Assembly (NCBI GenBank): GCA_001443385.1
Contig: LDXP01000011.1
Location: 7,892 to 44,981, forward strand
From: Candidatus Rokubacteria bacterium CSP1-6
Lineage (GTDB): Bacteria > Methylomirabilota > Methylomirabilia > Rokubacteriales > CSP1-6
Reading direction: 5' to 3'
DNA: 37,090 bases
Shown: piece after piece, positions 5 through 8,986 of the stretch
Layout: the number at the start of each line of letters is the position of its first letter
Numbering within the stretch: position 1 is the stretch's first letter
The notes under the pieces: model-generated
Told to the model about the DNA's origin: nothing
Seen by the model: only the letters and a program-made list of their open reading frames with translations
Database searches by the model: none
Position numbers and translations under genes: made by a program

Positions 5-469
5 ATGCCTTCCCGCGAGGTTGTTCCCCGAAAGCAATTGGCATTCTTTTTGCCCATGCGCATCGATATGAATCCGCGCTGGCGCGTTGTGATCGTTGAC
101 GATCGTGCCCTCTCCAAGGCCGCCGTGGCCGAAGCGGTTGCGACCTTGGAGCGCTATCGCCCGGACGTGGTCGTCCTGGCTCTGGGCCCCCCCGACGGCG
201 GTGGCGCGGAGGAGCTCAAGTCCGGGTTGGACGCGGTCAGGCGGGAGAACGAGGATCTCAAGAAGGCCCTCGAGTCACGGAAACTCGTGGAGCGCGCCAA
301 GGGAGTCCTGATGGAGCGGCACGGGTTGAGCGAGGCAGAAGCCTTCCGCCGAATCCAAAAGACCGCCATGGACAGTCGCCGGCCGATGATCGAGGTCGCG
401 CGAGCCCTCCTGCTGGTCGAACGGCTCGCAGGGGTGCCTTCCGGCCGGCGGCAGTCGTCCCCGCGGTAG
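5..469 (+). CDS. ANTAR-domain transcription antiterminator with reduced receiver
   Basis: The C-terminal half (about residues 80-140) reads as an ANTAR RNA-binding domain: a coiled lead-in, then ESRKLVERAKGVLMERHG, AEAFRRIQKTAMDSRRPM and a hydrophobic last helix. ANTAR proteins bind paired hexaloop hairpins in leader RNA and prevent termination (AmiR, NasR, EutV). The N-terminal part keeps a receiver-like first strand (RVVIVDD) and a segment resembling the strand that normally carries the phosphoacceptor (VVVLALGPPDGG), but no Asp sits at that place. Only about 60 residues separate the first strand from the ANTAR domain, about half a normal receiver. The start is uncertain: ATGs at 5, 56 and 68 are in frame, none has a clear Shine-Dalgarno, and the frame is open to the window edge. 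The next gene is the urea importer, whose leader carries matching RNA hairpins, so I infer it controls urea uptake and urease. The ANTAR call is firm; target and signal are inferred. Confidence 0.85.
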   Translation: MPSREVVPRKQLAFFLPMRIDMNPRWRVVIVDDRALSKAAVAEAVATLERYRPDVVVLALGPPDGGGAEELKSGLDAVRRENEDLKKALESRKLVERAKGVLMERHGLSEAEAFRRIQKTAMDSRRPMIEVARALLLVERLAGVPSGRRQSSPR

Positions 470-603: not shown

Positions 604-619
604 CGGCACGCGGCTTGCT
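604..619 (+). promoter_or_regulatory. Candidate sigma-54 (-24/-12) promoter for the urt-ure operon
   Basis: The sequence CGGCACG-cggc-TTGCT matches the sigma-54 consensus TGGCACG-N4-TTGCW with one mismatch, and keeps the invariant GG and GC ten bases apart. Transcription would start near 629-631, just before the first ANTAR-type hairpin. A nitrogen-linked promoter suits urea import and urease. I did not identify an enhancer-binding-protein site upstream. Confidence 0.6.
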
Positions 620-642
620 AGTTGGTTTCCTCGAAGCGACCC

Positions 643-660
643 GCCGACAACGGTGTTGGC
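643..660 (+). promoter_or_regulatory. ANTAR target hairpin P1 (hexaloop AACGGT)
   Basis: Six base pairs (GCCGAC with GTTGGC, one G-U) close a six-base loop AACGGT. The loop has A at position 1 and G at position 4, the published signature of ANTAR target hairpins. It lies just after the predicted sigma-54 start site and about 115 bases before the urtA ATG. Confidence 0.6.
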
Positions 661-696
661 CAGGGCAAGCTCGACCAGGTAATCCGTGGACCGATC

Positions 697-710
697 GCGC
701 AAGGGTGCGC
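697..710 (+). promoter_or_regulatory. ANTAR target hairpin P2 (hexaloop AAGGGT)
   Basis: A four-pair GCGC/GCGC stem closes the six-base loop AAGGGT, again with A1 and G4. Paired with P1 about 36 bases upstream, this gives the two-hairpin arrangement ANTAR dimers recognise. Its 3' arm overlaps the base (709-711) of an alternative bulged hairpin at 709-744 (GCT/AGC, AGGG/CCCT, ACG/CGT), so the two cannot form together. No real U-run follows that alternative hairpin. Confidence 0.55.
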
Positions 711-750
711 TGAGGGGCGACGAGGCCAGAACGTCCCTGATAGCCCAAAA

Positions 751-772
751 CGTCTCTTGTCGAAAGGAGTCG
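751..772 (+). promoter_or_regulatory. Hairpin that could mask the urtA Shine-Dalgarno
   Basis: CTCTT (754-758) can pair with AGGAG (765-769) across a six-base loop, with two more outer pairs beyond a T-T mismatch. AGGAG is the core of the urtA ribosome-binding site (AAAGGAG, six bases before the ATG at 776). The leader could therefore act on translation as well as, or instead of, termination. Short and only moderately stable by eye. Confidence 0.35.
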
Positions 773-775
773 CAC

Positions 776-2116
776 ATGACACAGGGTCACAGCCGTCGGG
801 AATTCCTCAAGGCGTCGGCTCTCGGCATCGCCGGCGCCGGGATTGCGGGAGGGCTGTCCTTCCCCGCGATCCTTCGGGCCCAGGAGAAGGGACCCATTAA
901 GGTCGGCGTCCTGCACTCGCTCAGCGGCACCATGGCCATCAGCGAAGCCCCGATCAAGGAGATCGTCCTGATGGCCATCGACGAGGTCAACAAGGCCGGT
1001 GGCGTCCTGGGCCGCAAGGTGGAGGCCCTGGTTGAAGATCCGGCCTCCAACTGGGACCTGTTCGCCGAGAAGTCGAAGAAGCTCTTGCTCCAGGACAAGG
1101 TGGCCACGGTTTTCGGTTGCTGGACGTCGGTCAGCCGCAAGTCCGTGCTGCCGGTCTTCGAGAAGAACAACGGCCTGCTCTTCTACCCGGTCCAGTACGA
1201 GGGTGAGGAGTGCTCGAAGAACGTGATCTACACCGGCGCCACGATCAACCAGCAGGCCACGCCCGGCATCGACTACCTGATGAGCCCGGAGGGGGGGAAC
1301 AGGAAGAAGTTCTACCTGCTCGGCTCCGACTACGTGTACCCCCGGACCACGAACAAGATCCTGCGCCTGTACCTCACGAAGGTGAAGAAGGTGCCCGAGT
1401 CGGCCATCGCCGAGGAGTACACACCGTTCCATCACCAGGACTACCAGACCATCGTCGGCAAGATCAAGAGCTTCAGCGCCGCCGGCGACGCGGCCGTGAT
1501 CAACACGATCAACGGCGACAGCAATGTGCCTTTCTTCAAGGAGCTCGCCAACCAGGGCGTGACGGCGGACCGGACGCCGACGATGTCGTCCAGCTTTGCC
1601 GAGGTGGAGCGCCAGCCCCTCGACGTCAAGCCGCTCGTGGGGCATCTGGCCTCGTGGAATTACTTCATGTCGCTCAAGACGCCCGAGAACCTCAAGTGGG
1701 TGAAGGCGTACAAGGAGTGGGCCAAGCAGCACGGGATTGCCGACAAGCAGGCCGTCACCGACGACCCGATGATGCACGCCTACATCCACGTCAAGCTCTG
1801 GGCGAAGGCGGTGGCGAAGGCGGAGTCCACCGAGGTCGACCGTGTCCTCAAGGCGCTCGAGGGGCTCGAGATTCCGAGCCCAGTGGGCAAGTACAAGGTG
1901 GACGAGAAGAATCACCACACGTGGAAACCGGTCTACATCGGCAAGATCCGCGCGGACGGCCAGTTCGACATCGTCTGGAAGACGAAGTCGTGGGTCCGGC
2001 CCGCGCCGTGGAGCGACGTCACGTACCCCGGCCGCGATTGCGACTGGAGCGGTGGCGGCAAGGGCTCGTACGACATGGTCGGCGGAAAGCGCGTGTGGCT
2101 CTCAGAAAAACAGTAG
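776..2116 (+). CDS. urtA: Urea ABC transporter, substrate-binding protein UrtA
   Basis: Periplasmic urea-binding component of the high-affinity UrtABCDE importer, of the type-I binding-protein fold related to LivJ and AmiC. I place the start at ATG 776 (446 aa): AAAGGAG lies six bases upstream, and the protein then opens with a Tat-type signal (SRREFLKA followed by a hydrophobic stretch and LRAQE). The ORF-track start at 686 would put about 30 non-conserved residues ahead of the signal and run through the P2 hairpin. The mature part begins PIKVGVLHSLSGTMA, typical of the family, and continues with YPVQYEGEECSKNVIYTGA, which I associate with UrtA rather than branched-chain amino acid binding proteins. 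The urtB start overlaps the end by 22 bases. Expression is probably under the sigma-54/ANTAR leader just upstream. Confidence 0.95.
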   Translation: MTQGHSRREFLKASALGIAGAGIAGGLSFPAILRAQEKGPIKVGVLHSLSGTMAISEAPIKEIVLMAIDEVNKAGGVLGRKVEALVEDPASNWDLFAEKSKKLLLQDKVATVFGCWTSVSRKSVLPVFEKNNGLLFYPVQYEGEECSKNVIYTGATINQQATPGIDYLMSPEGGNRKKFYLLGSDYVYPRTTNKILRLYLTKVKKVPESAIAEEYTPFHHQDYQTIVGKIKSFSAAGDAAVINTINGDSNVPFFKELANQGVTADRTPTMSSSFAEVERQPLDVKPLVGHLASWNYFMSLKTPENLKWVKAYKEWAKQHGIADKQAVTDDPMMHAYIHVKLWAKAVAKAESTEVDRVLKALEGLEIPSPVGKYKVDEKNHHTWKPVYIGKIRADGQFDIVWKTKSWVRPAPWSDVTYPGRDCDWSGGGKGSYDMVGGKRVWLSEKQ

Positions 2117-3747
2117 TCGTTCTCGCTGTTCTCGCTCTGGCGGTTCTTCCGGGGGTCCCCGGGCCCGGGGCGGCGTCCGCCGTCCCGGGGCCCGGCGTCC
2201 CCGACCTCGAGTCGGTCGCCAAGAGGCTCGCCGCGCCGGCGACCCAGGAAGCGGCGATCCTCGCCCTGCGAGAGGTCGGCGACCCGTCCGTGGGGACCCT
2301 CCTGCGGGCGCTCAAGGACGGAGCCCTGTATCGGTGGAAGGGGCGGCTCGTAATTCTGGGGGATGACGGCGCGCTGAAAGATCTGGCTGGGCAGCCGATC
2401 GTGGATGACCGCGGGCAGCCGGTCTCGCCCGCGGAGGGGCAGGAGGCCATCGCCCTCGAAGAACGACTCTTCGGGCTCGTCCAGAACCTCCTCGAGCGTC
2501 TCGAGGTCTTCAGCCTAGATCGCCAGGCGCGCCAGTCGGCGGCCTTCAAGCTCGGCAACTCGCGGGACCTGTCCGCGATCCCGGTGCTCGCGAAGGCCCT
2601 GGATCGGGAGGCGGACCGGCAGGTCAAAGGCGCCATCCAGGAAGCGCTGAACCGGCTGAGCCTCTCGTCTCCTGACGCCGCTGTGCGCGCGCGGGCGGCG
2701 CAGTTCCTGGGCCAGGCGTGGTTCGAGTCGAGCCTGGCTCAGCTCAGGATCATGGCGGAGCAGGATGAGGACGCCGAGGCCAAGCAGGCCGCGCGCGCCG
2801 CCGTCAGGCGCATCGAAGTGTTCCTCACCTGGCGCAACCTGACCGGCTACCTCTTCAACGGCGTCAGCCTCGGGGCCGTCCTGCTGATCATGAGCCTCGG
2901 GCTCGCCGTGACCTTCGGCCTGATGGGCATCATCAATATGGCGCACGGCGAGATGCTCATGCTCGGGTCCTACACGGCGTACGTGGTGCAGGAGATCTTC
3001 GCCTCGCGCTACGCCGCCCATCAGGACTATTTCTTCCTCGTGGCGCTGCCGCTCTCGTTCCTCGCGGCCGGGCTGGTGGGGCTCGCGCTCGAGAGCGGGA
3101 TCATCCGCTTCCTCTACGGCCGGCCCCTGGAGACGCTCATCGTCACCTGGGGGATCGGGATGATCTTCCAGCAGTCCGCCCGGCTCTACTTCGGCGACCA
3201 GACGAGCGTGAACTCCCCGAGCTGGTTTCGGGGCGGCGTGGAGGTGATGCGGGGACTGATCTTCCCCTGGAGCCGGATCTTCATCGTGGGGCTGTCCCTG
3301 GTGGCGCTGGCGGCGCTCTATCTCCTGCTTCAACGATCGTATGCGGGGCTCCGCGTGCGGGCCGTGATGCAGAACCGGGGGATGGCCTCGTGCCTGGGCG
3401 TGTCCACCCGGAAGATCGATGCCCTGACGTTTGCCCTGGGGACGGCGCTGGCGGGGGTGGCGGGGTGCGCGCTGGCCCTGATCGGCACGGTGGATCCCGA
3501 GGTCGGGAAGACGTACATCGTGGATGCCTTCATGGTTGTCGTGCTGGGCGGCGTCGGCAAGCTCCTCGGCGCCGTCGTCGCCTCGTTCGGCATCGGCGTG
3601 TCGAACAAGATCCTGGAGCCGTCCATCGGGGGGACCGCGGCCGCCATCTACGCGAAGGTGGCCATTCTCGCGCTCGTGATCTGGTTTCTCCAGTGGAGGC
3701 CGACGGGCTTCTTCCCCGCCAAGGGGCGCGCCGCCGAGGGCGCCTGA
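2095..3747 (+). CDS. urtB: Urea ABC transporter permease UrtB
   Basis: Inner-membrane permease of the urea importer, LivH family. GTG 2095 is chosen because it is preceded by GGCGGAAAG and opens a cleavable-looking hydrophobic signal (ALRKTVVVLAVLALAVLPG). The product is 550 aa, matching UrtB, which carries an extra N-terminal exported region of about 230 residues not found in LivH. That region here (about 30-240) is helical and HEAT-like, with repeated hydrophobic/charged helices. The membrane domain follows from about residue 245 (LTGYLFNGVSLGAVLLIMSL) and holds the family segment GIINMAHGEMLMLG. The upstream part of ORF 1210-3747 overlaps urtA in another frame and is not coding. A Pro/Gly-rich, very GC-rich stretch (about 2150-2200) encodes the linker after the signal. 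Confidence 0.93.
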   Translation: MALRKTVVVLAVLALAVLPGVPGPGAASAVPGPGVPDLESVAKRLAAPATQEAAILALREVGDPSVGTLLRALKDGALYRWKGRLVILGDDGALKDLAGQPIVDDRGQPVSPAEGQEAIALEERLFGLVQNLLERLEVFSLDRQARQSAAFKLGNSRDLSAIPVLAKALDREADRQVKGAIQEALNRLSLSSPDAAVRARAAQFLGQAWFESSLAQLRIMAEQDEDAEAKQAARAAVRRIEVFLTWRNLTGYLFNGVSLGAVLLIMSLGLAVTFGLMGIINMAHGEMLMLGSYTAYVVQEIFASRYAAHQDYFFLVALPLSFLAAGLVGLALESGIIRFLYGRPLETLIVTWGIGMIFQQSARLYFGDQTSVNSPSWFRGGVEVMRGLIFPWSRIFIVGLSLVALAALYLLLQRSYAGLRVRAVMQNRGMASCLGVSTRKIDALTFALGTALAGVAGCALALIGTVDPEVGKTYIVDAFMVVVLGGVGKLLGAVVASFGIGVSNKILEPSIGGTAAAIYAKVAILALVIWFLQWRPTGFFPAKGRAAEGA

Positions 3748-3755
3748 GGCCTCCC

Positions 3756-4898
3756 GTGGTTCCCCCCCTGGGCCGGCGGAGCTGGGACGCGCAACTCCTG
3801 TGGCTCGGGCTGTTCGGGATCGTGTTTGTGGTCGTCCTCCCGCTGGCCAACGCGCTGGGTTTCCTCTCGGACTACTACCTGAACCTCTTCGGGAAATACC
3901 TGTCGCTCGCCATCCTCGCCCTGGGTATGGACCTCATCTGGGGCTACACGGGGATTCTCTCCCTGGGCCAGGCCATCTTCTTCGGGGTCGGGGCCTACTC
4001 CATCGGGATGCACATGATGCTGGAGGGGAGCGGCAAGGGCGTGTACGGAGAGCCGGTCCCCGACTTCATGATCTGGAACCAGGTCTACCAGCTTCCGATT
4101 TTCTGGAAGCCCTACAAGTATTTCGTCTTCGCCCTGGGCTCCTCGGTCTTGCTGCCGGCCGCCCTGGCCGCGCTCGTCGGATTCCTCACCTTTCGGCGGA
4201 GGCTCCGCGGGACCTACTTCGCCATCCTCACCCAGGCCATCGCGTTCGCCGTGTGGCTGATGCTCAATCGCAATGAAATGAAGCTGGGGGGCACCAACGG
4301 TCTGACCGACTTCAAGTCCATCCTGGGATTCTCGCTGGGCCAGCCGGCCACGCTCAGGGCGCTCTATATCTTCACGGCGGCGGCGCTGGTCGGGGCGTTC
4401 CTGGTGAGCCGGTGGCTCGTCCGTTCGAAGACCGGATTGGTTCTCCAGGCCGTCCGGGACAACGAGCGGCGGCTGGAGTTTCTGGGCTACAACGTCGCCA
4501 GCTACAAGATCTTCGTGTTCGCCGTCTCCGGGGCGCTGGCCGGTCTCTCCGGGCTGCTCTACGCCCCGCAGGTCGGCATCATCACGCCGAGCCAGGTCGG
4601 TGTGCTTCCCTCCCTGGAGATCGTCATCTGGGTCGCCTTCGGCGGCCGGGGGACGCTCTGGGGAGCCCTGCTCGGGGCGATCTCCATCAACTGGCTCCGG
4701 AGCGTGCTGACCGCCACGTATCCCAGCCTCTGGCCGATTATCCTGGGCGGATTGTTCGTGACCGTCATCCTGTTCTTCCCGCAGGGGCTCGTCGGGCTCG
4801 CGAACAAGCTCCGATCCCTCGGGAAGAGAAAACGAACCTTTCTGACGACCGCTCGAGTCACTCCGGCATCGTCGAAGGTGGAAGGACACCCCCTCTGA
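3756..4898 (+). CDS. urtC: Urea ABC transporter permease UrtC
   Basis: Second inner-membrane permease of the urea importer, LivM family, 380 aa from GTG 3756, nine bases after the urtB stop. About ten hydrophobic segments are visible. Family hallmarks include DLIWGYTGILSLGQAIFFG in the first half, LRGTYFAILTQAIAFA in the middle, and AVRDNERRLEFLGYNVASYK, the EAA-like cytoplasmic loop that meets the ATPases. The soluble loop at about 90-115 (EPVPDFMIWNQVYQLPIFWK) is characteristic of UrtC compared with LivM. Earlier parts of ORF 3390-4898 overlap urtB and are not coding. The stop overlaps the urtD ATG (TGATG). Confidence 0.93.
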   Translation: MVPPLGRRSWDAQLLWLGLFGIVFVVVLPLANALGFLSDYYLNLFGKYLSLAILALGMDLIWGYTGILSLGQAIFFGVGAYSIGMHMMLEGSGKGVYGEPVPDFMIWNQVYQLPIFWKPYKYFVFALGSSVLLPAALAALVGFLTFRRRLRGTYFAILTQAIAFAVWLMLNRNEMKLGGTNGLTDFKSILGFSLGQPATLRALYIFTAAALVGAFLVSRWLVRSKTGLVLQAVRDNERRLEFLGYNVASYKIFVFAVSGALAGLSGLLYAPQVGIITPSQVGVLPSLEIVIWVAFGGRGTLWGALLGAISINWLRSVLTATYPSLWPIILGGLFVTVILFFPQGLVGLANKLRSLGKRKRTFLTTARVTPASSKVEGHPL

Positions 4899-5677
4899 TG
4901 GACACGCTACTCTACGTGGAAGGCCTCAGCGTTTCGTTCGACGGGTTTCTGGCGTTGAGAACCCTCAATCTCATCCTGGAGCGGCAGGAGCGGATCCGCC
5001 TGCTGATCGGCCCCAACGGGGCGGGGAAGACCACGCTCTTCGACGCGCTCACGGGCCAGGTCAAGCCGGACCACGGCCGCGTCCTCTTCAAGGATCACGT
5101 GGACCTGCTCGGGTTGAGCGAGCATGTCATCGCCAACCACGGCGTCATCCGGAAGTTCCAGACTCCCTCCGTGTTCCCCGATCACACCGTCTTCGAGAAC
5201 ATGGTGCTCTCCTCCGGTCGAAAGCGGTTCCTGGCCACCCTCGCCGCCCGCGCCGCCTCGCGGGAACTGGATGGCATCGCCCGGGTGCTGGAACAGGTCG
5301 GGCTGCTCCAGCACGCGCACGCGCGGGCCGGGACCCTCTCCCACGGCCAGAAACAGTGGCTGGAGATCGCCATGCTGCTCCTGCAGGAGCCGACGCTCCT
5401 CCTCCTCGATGAGCCCGTCGCCGGGATGACGAGGGCGGAGAAGGAGAAGACCGTCGCCCTGATGGAGTCGATCGTGCAGCGCTCGACCTGCACCATCATG
5501 CTCATCGAGCACGACATGCAGTTCGTCCGGCAGATCGCCGGCCGCGGCCACCGGGTGACCGTGCTGCACGAGGGAAGCGTGCTCTCGGAGGGCTCGATCG
5601 ATCGGGTGCAGCCCGACGAGCGGGTGATCGAGGCGTATCTGGGCCGGGGCACGGTGAGCGCGGAGGCGCCATGCTAG
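4898..5677 (+). CDS. urtD: Urea ABC transporter ATPase UrtD
   Basis: Cytoplasmic ATPase of the urea importer, LivG-like, 259 aa. The start ATG 4898 overlaps the urtC stop, with GGAAGG a short distance upstream. Walker A is GPNGAGKTT (about residue 43), the signature is LSHGQKQWLEIAML, a variant of LSGGQ that is usual in UrtD, and Walker B is LLLLDEPVAGM. The switch His lies in LIEHDMQFVRQIA. It should pair with UrtE to power transport. The stop overlaps the urtE start. Confidence 0.95.
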   Translation: MDTLLYVEGLSVSFDGFLALRTLNLILERQERIRLLIGPNGAGKTTLFDALTGQVKPDHGRVLFKDHVDLLGLSEHVIANHGVIRKFQTPSVFPDHTVFENMVLSSGRKRFLATLAARAASRELDGIARVLEQVGLLQHAHARAGTLSHGQKQWLEIAMLLLQEPTLLLLDEPVAGMTRAEKEKTVALMESIVQRSTCTIMLIEHDMQFVRQIAGRGHRVTVLHEGSVLSEGSIDRVQPDERVIEAYLGRGTVSAEAPC

Positions 5678-6363
5678 CCGTCAACGCGATCGACGTGTTT
5701 TACGGTGAGAGCCAGATTTTGACCCAGCTGAGCGTCGCTGTGGGGACAGGTCAGGTTGTGTGCGTCATGGGGCGCAACGGCGTCGGCAAGACCACCCTGC
5801 TCAAGACCATCATGGGACTCCTGGTACCGCGCCAGGGCACGATCGTCTTCGACGGCCACGAGATCGGTCACCTGACTCCCTACGAGCGGGCGCGCCGGGG
5901 GATCGGGTACGTTCCCCAGGGGCGAGAGATCTTCCCGTCCCTGAGCGTCCGCGAGAACCTGGTCCTGGGAGCCCGCCGGAAGCGGCCGACGCCGGAGTCC
6001 CTGGACTACGTCCTGTCCCTCTTCCCCGCGCTGTCCCAGATGCTCGAGAAACGCGGGGGGGACCTGAGCGGAGGGCAGCAGCAGCAGCTGGCCATCGCCC
6101 GCGCCCTGATCTCGGATCCAAAGCTGCTCCTCCTGGATGAGCCCACCGAGGGGATCCAGCCGTCCATCGTCCAGGAGATCGCCGCGGTGCTCCAGCAGAT
6201 CAAGGGGGAACGAACGCGGTCCATTCTTCTGGTGGAGCAGTACCTCGAATTCGCCCGCTCGATCTGCGACCACTTCTACGTGATGGAAAAAGGCGTGGTA
6301 GCCTTGGAGGGCGATCGGGAGGCGTTTCGCGTGGACGAGGTGAGCCAGTTTCTGAGCGTGTAG
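5671..6363 (+). CDS. urtE: Urea ABC transporter ATPase UrtE
   Basis: Second cytoplasmic ATPase of the urea importer, LivF-like, 230 aa, the usual length. Walker A is GRNGVGKTTLL, signature LSGGQQQQLAIARAL, Walker B LLLLDEPTEGIQPSIV, and the switch His is replaced by Gln in LLVEQYLEFA, as is normal for LivF/UrtE proteins. The start ATG 5671 lies inside the end of urtD, preceded by GCGGAGG. A short spacer carrying a GC-rich hairpin repeat separates it from ureA. Confidence 0.95.
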   Translation: MLAVNAIDVFYGESQILTQLSVAVGTGQVVCVMGRNGVGKTTLLKTIMGLLVPRQGTIVFDGHEIGHLTPYERARRGIGYVPQGREIFPSLSVRENLVLGARRKRPTPESLDYVLSLFPALSQMLEKRGGDLSGGQQQQLAIARALISDPKLLLLDEPTEGIQPSIVQEIAAVLQQIKGERTRSILLVEQYLEFARSICDHFYVMEKGVVALEGDREAFRVDEVSQFLSV

Positions 6364-6902: not shown

Positions 6903-7274
6903 ATGATTCCAGGAGAATACCTGTTGGGCGAAGGCGAGATCGTGGCCAACGCGGGACGCCGGACCATCGAGCTGGCCGTGGCGAACACGGGCGACCGCCC
7001 GATCCAGGTCGGCTCTCACTTCCACTTTTTCGAGGCGAACAGGGCGTTGCGCTTCGATCGCGCGAAAGCCTTCGGGATGAGGCTCAACATCCCGGCGGGG
7101 ACCGCGGTCCGCTTCGAGCCCGGCGACGAGAAGCGCGTGACGCTGGTCGAGCTGGCGGGCGCGCGCGAGGTGTACGGACTGAACGCCCTGACCGACGGAC
7201 CGGCGGGTGACGCGGGACGCGCCGGCGCCGTGGGCCGCGCGGCGCGGGAGGGCTTTCAGGGGGCCGCCCAATGA
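6903..7274 (+). CDS. ureB: Urease beta subunit UreB
   Basis: Second small structural subunit of urease, 123 aa. It begins [16 protein letters not shown] and contains the family block [20 protein letters not shown] and [17 protein letters not shown], then [21 protein letters not shown] sits seven bases before the ATG. The C-terminal tail after residue 100 is Ala/Gly/Arg-rich and a little longer than in many UreB. The last four bases overlap the ureC ATG. Confidence 0.97.
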
Positions 7275-8986
7275 GTCTCACACTTGGGCGCAAGCAATAC
7301 GCCGATCTCTACGGGCCCACCGTCGGCGACCGCGTCCGGCTGGCCGACACGGAGCTGCTCATCGAGGTGGAGCGAGACTTCACGGTCTACGGCGACGAGG
7401 TCAAATTCGGCGGCGGGAAGGTGATTCGGGACGGGATGGGGCAATCCGCCCGGGCCACGGCGGCCGAAGGGGCGCTCGACTGCGTCGTCACCAACGCGCT
7501 CATCCTCGACCACTGGGGGATCGTGAAGGCGGACATCGGGATCAAGGGCGGCCGCATCGTCGGGATCGGGAAGGCGGGCAATCCCGATCTGATGGCCGGC
7601 GTCTCGCCGGGAATGGTGATCGGAGCCGCCACGGAGGTCATCGCGGGCGAGGGGCGGATCGTCACGGCGGGCGGGATCGACGCCCACATCCATTTCATCT
7701 GCCCTCAGCTCGCGTGGGAGGCGCTCTCCGCCGGCGTGACCACGTTGATCGGCGGCGGGAGCGGGCCGGCCACGGGGACCAACGCCACGACCTGCACGCC
7801 GGGGGCGTGGAACATCCACCGCATGCTGGAAGCGGCCGACGGCCTGCCGATGAACCTGGGCTTCCTCGGCAAGGGCAACGCCTCGCGCCCCCAGCCCCTG
7901 CGCGAGCAGATCGAGGCCGGCGCCATCGGCCTCAAGCTCCACGAGGACTGGGGGACCACGCCGGCGGCCATCGACTGCGCGCTGGGGGTGGCGGAGGAGT
8001 ACGACGTCCAGATCGCGATCCATACCGACACGCTGAACGAGGCGGGCTTTGTCGAGGACTCGATTCGCGCCTTCAAGGGGCGGACGATTCACACGTACCA
8101 CACCGAAGGCGCCGGCGGCGGCCACGCGCCCGACATCATCCGCGTCTGCGGCGAGCCGAACTGCCTGCCGTCCTCGACGAACCCGACCATGCCGTTCACC
8201 GTGAACACGATGGACGAGCACCTCGACATGCTGATGGTCTGCCACCACTTGAACCCGAAGATCCCCGAGGACCTGGCTTTCGCCGAGTCGCGCATCCGGG
8301 CCGAGACGATCGCCGCCGAGGACGTGCTCCACGATCTGGGCGCGATCAGCATGCTCTCCTCCGATTCGCAGGCTATGGGGCGCATCGGCGAGGTGGTCGT
8401 GCGCACCTGGCAGACCGCCGACAAGATGAAGCGTCAGCGCGGCCCGCTGCCCGGGGATGGGCGCAACGACAACGCCCGGGCGAAGCGCTACGTGGCGAAG
8501 TATACGATTAACCCCGCGATCACCCACGGGATCGCCCACGAGGCCGGCTCGATCGAGGTCGGGAAGCTCGCCGACCTGGTGCTCTGGAAGCCGGCCTTCT
8601 TCGGCGTCAAGCCCGAGCTGGTGGTGAAGGGCGGGTTCATCGCGTGGGCGGCCATGGGGGACCCGAACGCCTCGATTCCCACCCCCCAGCCGGTGCTCTA
8701 CCGCCCGATGTTCGGCGCCTTCGGGCGCGCGCCGTTCGCGACGGGGCTGACCTTCCTCTCCCGCGCGGCGCTGGAGGACGGAGTCGCGGCGCGCCTCGGT
8801 CTCCAGAAGCGGGTGGTGGCGGTGAAGAACTGCCGCGGGCTCACGAAACGGGCGATGGTCGGGAACGACTACTGCCCGCGCATTGAGGTGGACCCGGAGA
8901 CCTACCAGGTCCGCGCCGACGGCCAGCTGCTCACCTGCGAGCCGGCGCGGGCCCTCGCCATGGCCCAGCGCTATTTCTTGTTCTGA
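7271..8986 (+). CDS. ureC: Urease alpha (catalytic) subunit UreC
   Basis: Catalytic amidohydrolase subunit of the dinickel urease, 571 aa, normal length. The nickel ligands are present: [12 protein letters not shown] (H139, H141), the carbamylated lysine in GLKLHEDWG (K222, with H224), IHTDTLNE, the [14 protein letters not shown] block, and [12 protein letters not shown] with the Asp ligand. The mobile flap [16 protein letters not shown] carries the conserved Cys and His. The N-terminus ([18 protein letters not shown]) is canonical. The enzyme should therefore be active once the accessory genes downstream load nickel. Confidence 0.98.

Follow-up and report, generated by a model that had tools for sequence, protein, structure and literature searches.

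A sigma-54 promoter and a putative, rearranged ANTAR-target leader in front of urea uptake and urease genes in a Rokubacteria genome

We propose, with a probability of about 0.6, that the urea uptake and urease genes described here are governed by an NtrC/sigma-54 promoter and by an ANTAR-target leader which, when bound by the ANTAR protein encoded upstream, raises the expression of urtA, and that this RNA element has been rearranged in the present species. The urt-ure genes would be transcribed from the sigma-54 promoter upon activation by an NtrC-type protein at two palindromes and, judging from these sites and their conservation, would be made when nitrogen is short. The transcript would open with the ANTAR-target leader; the ANTAR protein, which is of a pseudo-receiver (AmiR-like) lineage, would bind the first hairpin of this leader (P1) and probably also a hairpin at 697-710, and binding would raise the expression of urtA and of the genes behind it. 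The rearrangement would comprise the loss of the canonical second hairpin (P2), the retention of a hexaloop hairpin further downstream and the loss of most of the pseudo-receiver. If this is true, urea uptake and urease in mostly uncultured soil and groundwater bacteria are under two layers of control, nitrogen status acting at initiation and an RNA-binding protein acting afterwards.

The urt-ure locus and its promoter

The window, by which we mean the whole stretch of DNA analysed (37,090 nucleotides, C11:7892-44981), comes from a Rokubacteria assembly, and its named relatives are members of Candidatus Rokuibacteriota. The comparison draws on 57 genomes of the window's own Rokubacteria family, which gave up to 41 urtA leaders. 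The features on which the argument turns are as follows.

67-469, plus strand: ANTAR-domain regulator gene (Pfam ANTAR, PF03861, E 1.8e-24; the only ANTAR match found in the genome)
473-489, no strand: NtrC-type palindrome 1, TGCCGCATTCGTTAGCA (TGCM-N9-RGCA pattern)
502-518, no strand: NtrC-type palindrome 2, TGCCTAAGAAGCGAGCA (29 bp from the first site)
604-619, plus strand: sigma-54 promoter (-24/-12), CGGCACG-N4-TTGCT, with GG at 605-606 and GC at 617-618; conserved in relatives
643-660, plus strand: hairpin P1, GCCGAC(AACGGT)GTTGGC, 6 bp, loop 649-654 with A1 and G4; homologous to P1 of the family
661-696, plus strand: linker of 36 nt, with an eroded remnant at the canonical place of P2, about 24-25 nt after the start of the P1 loop
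697-710, plus strand: second hexaloop hairpin, GCGC(AAGGGT)GCGC, 4 bp, loop 701-706 with A1 and G4
764-769, plus strand: ribosome-binding site of urtA, AAGGAG
776-2116, plus strand: urtA, Tat-exported urea-binding protein (TIGR03407 and the TAT signal TIGR01409, both above cut-off)
within the open frame 1210-3747, before urtC, plus strand: urtB (BPD_transp_2 match)
3735-6363, plus strand: urtC, urtD and urtE (TIGR03408, TIGR03411 and TIGR03410, above cut-off)
6903-8986, plus strand: ureB and ureC, urease subunits

The gene order is thus ANTAR gene, urtABCDE, urease genes. An earlier reading made from the sequence alone had placed an ANTAR-domain gene immediately upstream of the leader, and this is borne out by the profile match in an open frame running from an ATG at 5 to 469, in which the start at 67, MNPRWRVVIVDD, agrees with relatives. 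Upstream of the window the contig encodes a receiver-GAF-histidine kinase, an NtrC-type regulator (receiver, sigma-54 interaction domain and Fis-type HTH), a lone receiver protein, amtB and glnA. Directly before window position 1 a stretch of 40 N (L002:1457-1496), standing for a gap of unknown length, separates glnA from the ANTAR gene, and in the sister genome a porin gene (BBP2) lies between the two. An Rfam match to 5_ureB_sRNA (74 bits; 7424-7715, minus strand), located inside ureC, probably reflects conserved urease coding sequence, not an antisense RNA. Within the genus the locus is present in two genomes only; another genome of the genus, G001, has neither an ANTAR nor a urtA match, both having been lost or being absent through incomplete assembly.

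The sigma-54 box, already proposed from the sequence alone, is the sole match to YGGYAYRN4YTGCW in the window (0.15 expected by chance) and is kept at a similar distance in 35 of the 41 urtA leaders of the family. It has the GG-N10-GC arrangement with conserved flanks, the genome carries rpoN and 15 strong sigma-54 activators, and transcription is expected to start near 630. The two tandem NtrC-type palindromes had been missed by the sequence-only reading. A 17-bp palindrome of the form TGCM-N9-RGCA occurs at most 220 bp upstream of the box in all 35 box-bearing leaders, the local background rate predicting 4.4 such sites in total over all 35, and at sequence level TGC-N11-GCA, the arrangement expected of an enhancer about 70-130 bp upstream, is likewise found in 35/35. 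The 29-bp tandem is present also in L003, L004, L054-L056, L058-L060, L079 and L080; in all it occurs in eleven leaders of five genera. As the pattern alone is not rare across the window, which has 2 sites where shuffled sequence would give 4, it is position and conservation, not rarity, that make the case for NtrC-type sites. An NtrC site quoted for Paracoccus (PMC5424462) agrees with 473-489 and 502-518 in its half-sites and length, and we infer from these sequences that NtrC would bind both palindromes. Control by nitrogen status at initiation, another proposal of the sequence-only reading, is supported by the retention of the box, by the NtrC-type sites, by rpoN and by the upstream neighbourhood of NtrC-type regulator, amtB and glnA. 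In L010 and relatives of genus g19 the second NtrC-type site lies within a long hairpin, GGGCCGCTGCCTA...TAGGCAGCGGCCC followed by TTT, between the ANTAR stop and the sigma-54 box; this hairpin may also serve to terminate the upstream operon.

The hexaloop hairpins and the ANTAR protein

Comparison of leader sequences supports an ANTAR-type leader that is real at the level of the family. In most relatives P1 has the typical form GGAC(AnnGnn)GTCC and P2 the form GCGGC(AnnGnn)GCnGC; the loop starts are 21-25 nt apart in 27 leaders (24 nt in about 19), and linkers within the published range for ANTAR targets, 2-25 nt (PMC8164766), occur in about 27 relatives. In an alignment of 24 sequences A1 of both loops, G4 of the second loop and the closing C-G pair are invariant, G4 of the first loop is kept in at least 90%, and loop positions 2, 3, 5 and 6 are variable. 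Standard pairs fill 84.6% of the cells in the stems of P1 and P2 taken together, compared with 24-56% when the partners are slid, and the covariation score lies within that of shuffles; for P1 over 36 sequences covariation is 0.204 versus 0.121 shuffled (1/500), with 11 double changes (0/500 shuffles). The two stems together show modest covariation, and P1 shows it clearly. The hexaloops thus recur in relatives and P1 covaries, and the joint score of P1 and P2 does not exceed shuffles. In genera g5, g8 and g14 there is a mismatch beside the closing pair in P1 and usually also in P2; such a second-pair mismatch (GGCC/GYCC, GCGCC/GYCGC) in both hairpins of L072, L074, L068, L073, L075, L076, L077, L071, L069 and L047 is a consistent variant of ANTAR hairpins.

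In each genome a covariance model of the family (R1), trained on relatives, has a single strong match, which is the urtA leader, at 45-59 bits in relatives; the strong matches are mostly training sequences, G040 being outside the training set. In the other 38 genomes of the class the model found no instance of the motif outside the family at E 0.005. A genome-wide ANTAR regulon was considered and rejected on the single strong match per genome, and within the family this would be a one-regulator, one-target ANTAR system. Most genomes of the family that have the leader carry the ANTAR gene beside urtA; co-occurrence and conservation across the family show that regulator and leader are paired, and the neighbouring ANTAR protein very probably recognises the leader in these soil and groundwater Rokubacteria.

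The window leader itself is atypical and partly remodelled relative to the family. Two short stems with hexaloops carrying A1 and G4 are found at 643-660 and 697-710, and the succession of loops AACGGT and AAGGGT and then the urtA ribosome-binding site is where the sequence-only reading had placed it. At the canonical place of P2 the window has ACCAGG, and its sister leader L003 has AACGAC with a broken stem. The hairpin at 697-710, which lies 52 nt after the start of the P1 loop, is also present in L003 (loop AAGGGC; 13/14 identical) and in L004 (loop AACGGC); its likely counterpart in L004 is the third hairpin there, AGCGC(AACGGC)GCGCT. The 36-nt linker between the two window hairpins is longer than the 2-25 nt range, and a lengthened linker abolishes EutV action (PMC8934654, PMC3369931). 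The covariance-model check suggested along with the sequence-only reading gave no support: the Rfam scan of the window leader matched no family, ANTAR included, and the family model gave it 9.1 bits, which puts it 17th among 90 matches at background level in the window. P1 as an ANTAR site is well supported and the hairpin at 697-710 less so, because of this linker and this score.

In relatives the ANTAR protein has a receiver fold followed by ANTAR; the phospho-acceptor Asp is replaced by Ala or another residue (FAVGLPDG and variants), and the aligned relatives retain the acidic pair and Lys of the receiver. By these residues the protein belongs to the pseudo-receiver subgroup that lacks the phospho-acceptor Asp, of which AmiR is a named example (PMC7496416), and a receiver with that Asp, as in EutV-type proteins, is not found. 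Most of the receiver of the window protein has gone through two in-frame deletions (Pfam detects no receiver domain there and does detect one in the L003 protein); the ANTAR frame is intact, and the last 81 residues are 83% identical to the sister protein. We took the RNA-contact residues of EutV from PMC8934654 and compared them by alignment to the solved EutV, with a deduced numbering offset of 2. Arg142, Lys143, Lys149, Glu160, Met172 and Arg175 of EutV are matched by R92, K93, K99, E110, M122 and R125 of the window protein; Tyr164 is replaced by Phe (F114), Lys147 by Arg and Asn173 by Asp, and the positions of Arg168 and Arg177 differ. As EutV without its receiver is dimeric (PMC3369936), the window protein could bind without a signal, and by this analogy it may be signal-independent. 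No cytoplasmic AmiC-like sensor was identified in the genome, the Peripla_BP_5 relatives with a readable N-terminus all carrying export signals; Tat-exported UrtA could conceivably serve as a cytosolic sensor before its export. Across the family the ANTAR protein probably relies on a binding partner for sensing, not on phosphorylation.

Output of the leader and competing readings

The sequence-only reading had placed the second control at elongation, in response to a signal related to urea or nitrogen. In classical antitermination of the nasF or eutP kind, P2 would form in competition with an intrinsic terminator, and polymerase would pass once the protein is bound; for the window leader this is unsupported, because there is no intrinsic terminator within the window, and so none overlapping P2, the linker is 36 nt and the canonical P2 is degraded. 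The relatives speak in its favour at one point: in L004, whose UrtA is 91% identical, a stem CGGCGCC/GGCGCCG followed by TTTTTGTTTGTT overlaps P2, GTGGC(AGCGGC)GCCAC, and the free fold favours the terminator (P2 probability 0.00), which makes L004 the clearest candidate for classical antitermination in the family. This terminator, the only strong one in a search for terminators shared by relatives, was read by eye, its 9-nt loop being beyond the loop limit of the terminator search, and a U-tract hairpin after P2 is absent from most other relatives. The L004 leader (sigma-54 box 1037, urtA 1221) carries the terminator over P2 and a third hexaloop hairpin downstream. In L057, L066 and L067 the gap between ANTAR and urtA is about 80 nt or less and has no sigma-54 box; P1 and P2 are retained there with scant room for a terminator. 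Taken together, we regard antitermination as an unlikely account of the window leader.

A different output is suggested by folding, in which the entire P1 sequence of many relatives is complementary to the ribosome-binding site, the spacer and the start codon; P1 would pair with the start region unless the ANTAR protein held it in its hairpin form. In a scan covering 39 leaders and 16 genera no other part of the leader matches its own start region as well as P1, where the peak exactly falls, the pairing with the own start being -13.8 kcal/mol versus -11.9 kcal/mol for other genera (one-per-genus permutation p about 0.003). Examples are L063, UGGACAACGAGGUCC with GGAGCUCGUAUGUCCA, L046, GAUGUC/GACAUC, and L044, GGCGUC/GACGCC; variable loop positions and the spacer change together (GAU/AUC in L046, GGC/GCC in L044, ACGAG/CUCGU in L063), and the complementarity is strong in about ten leaders. 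This co-variation suggests translational control in relatives, yet the pairing is absent from the window (best -12.2 versus a null best of -12.5), from L003, from L058 (at P1), from L054-L056 and from genus g19, and forcing P1 and P2 to form had no consistent effect on the shielding of the ribosome-binding site. As the scan covers about 34 overlapping positions, the leaders are related and the folds used to test the idea are also those that gave rise to it, the pairing is a lead, not a result, and we consider such a translational switch doubtful as the explanation for the window. A combined account, which we hold as a tentative possibility, is that in Rokubacteria P1 blocks the urtA start and ANTAR binding to P1 and P2 frees translation on top of NtrC/sigma-54 control, the window lineage having lost both the pairing and the sensing. 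The co-variation of P1 and start region makes a specific and easily tested prediction of an ANTAR mechanism without description in the literature cited here, and in the relatives there are hints of a mode of action not so far described for an ANTAR switch.

The peculiarities of the window also raise the question of decay, in which P1 would be a relic and urt-ure would be under NtrC and sigma-54 alone. The canonical P2 is eroded, the receiver largely deleted and the model score at background, and P1, at 78% identity to the sister genome compared with 82% in the upstream spacer, is conserved no better than its flanks. Against this, the ANTAR frame has survived its two deletions with a well-kept C-terminus, the four changes in P1 relative to L003 each preserve the pairs and A1/G4, and 697-710 is nearly identical to its counterpart there; we judge decay to be rather unlikely. 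In favour of chance hairpins in GC-rich DNA, two or more A1/G4 hexaloop hairpins with stems of 4 bp or longer arise in 77 of 5000 dinucleotide shuffles of the window leader (1.5%), and its free-energy fold is no better than shuffles (z 0.00). The 41 homologous leaders, however, hold 46 A1/G4 hexaloop hairpins versus 4.1 expected from shuffles, and every sequence in the alignment of 24 has A1 in both loops; a chance origin of P1 is unlikely, and as a reading of the whole leader chance is very improbable. We favour an ANTAR-target leader, rearranged in this species, behind an NtrC/sigma-54 promoter.

Comparison with known ANTAR systems

The nasF leader of Klebsiella has a sigma-54 promoter as well. 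With NasR it likewise joins an ANTAR protein, paired A1/G4 hexaloops and nitrogen-source genes (PMC3369936); unlike the window system, NasR has a nitrate-sensing NIT domain, and the hairpins of nasF are compact and accompanied by an intrinsic terminator. AmiR-AmiC and NasT-NasS have receiver-type ANTAR proteins, as here, that of AmiR being a pseudo-receiver (PMC7496416), and NasT has a binding-protein partner that releases it (PMC3795266); in our case, by contrast, no cytoplasmic binding-protein partner was found, the neighbouring UrtA is Tat-signalled and the targets are urea genes. The EutV-eut leaders of Enterococcus share with the window system the dual hexaloop target and most RNA-contact residues, but EutW phosphorylates EutV, whose several targets carry terminators, whereas here the phospho-acceptor Asp is missing and each genome has a single strong target.

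The sequence-only reading knew of no described ANTAR leader for urt or ure genes, which is partly right. Our literature search for ANTAR with urtABCDE returned matches that looked like the word Antarctica only; predicted ANTAR RNAs upstream of urea transporters were, however, listed among bioinformatic hits in 2012, according to an excerpt of PMC3369931, and share with the window an ANTAR RNA before urea uptake genes. The kind is therefore already known and the window copy is a variant of it; the excerpted text on these hits gives no Rokubacteria example, promoter or start-site pairing. Among actinobacterial ANTAR RNAs some act at the ribosome-binding site, where binding represses translation (PMC8164766); the P1-start pairing of the relatives predicts the opposite, translation activated by ANTAR binding.
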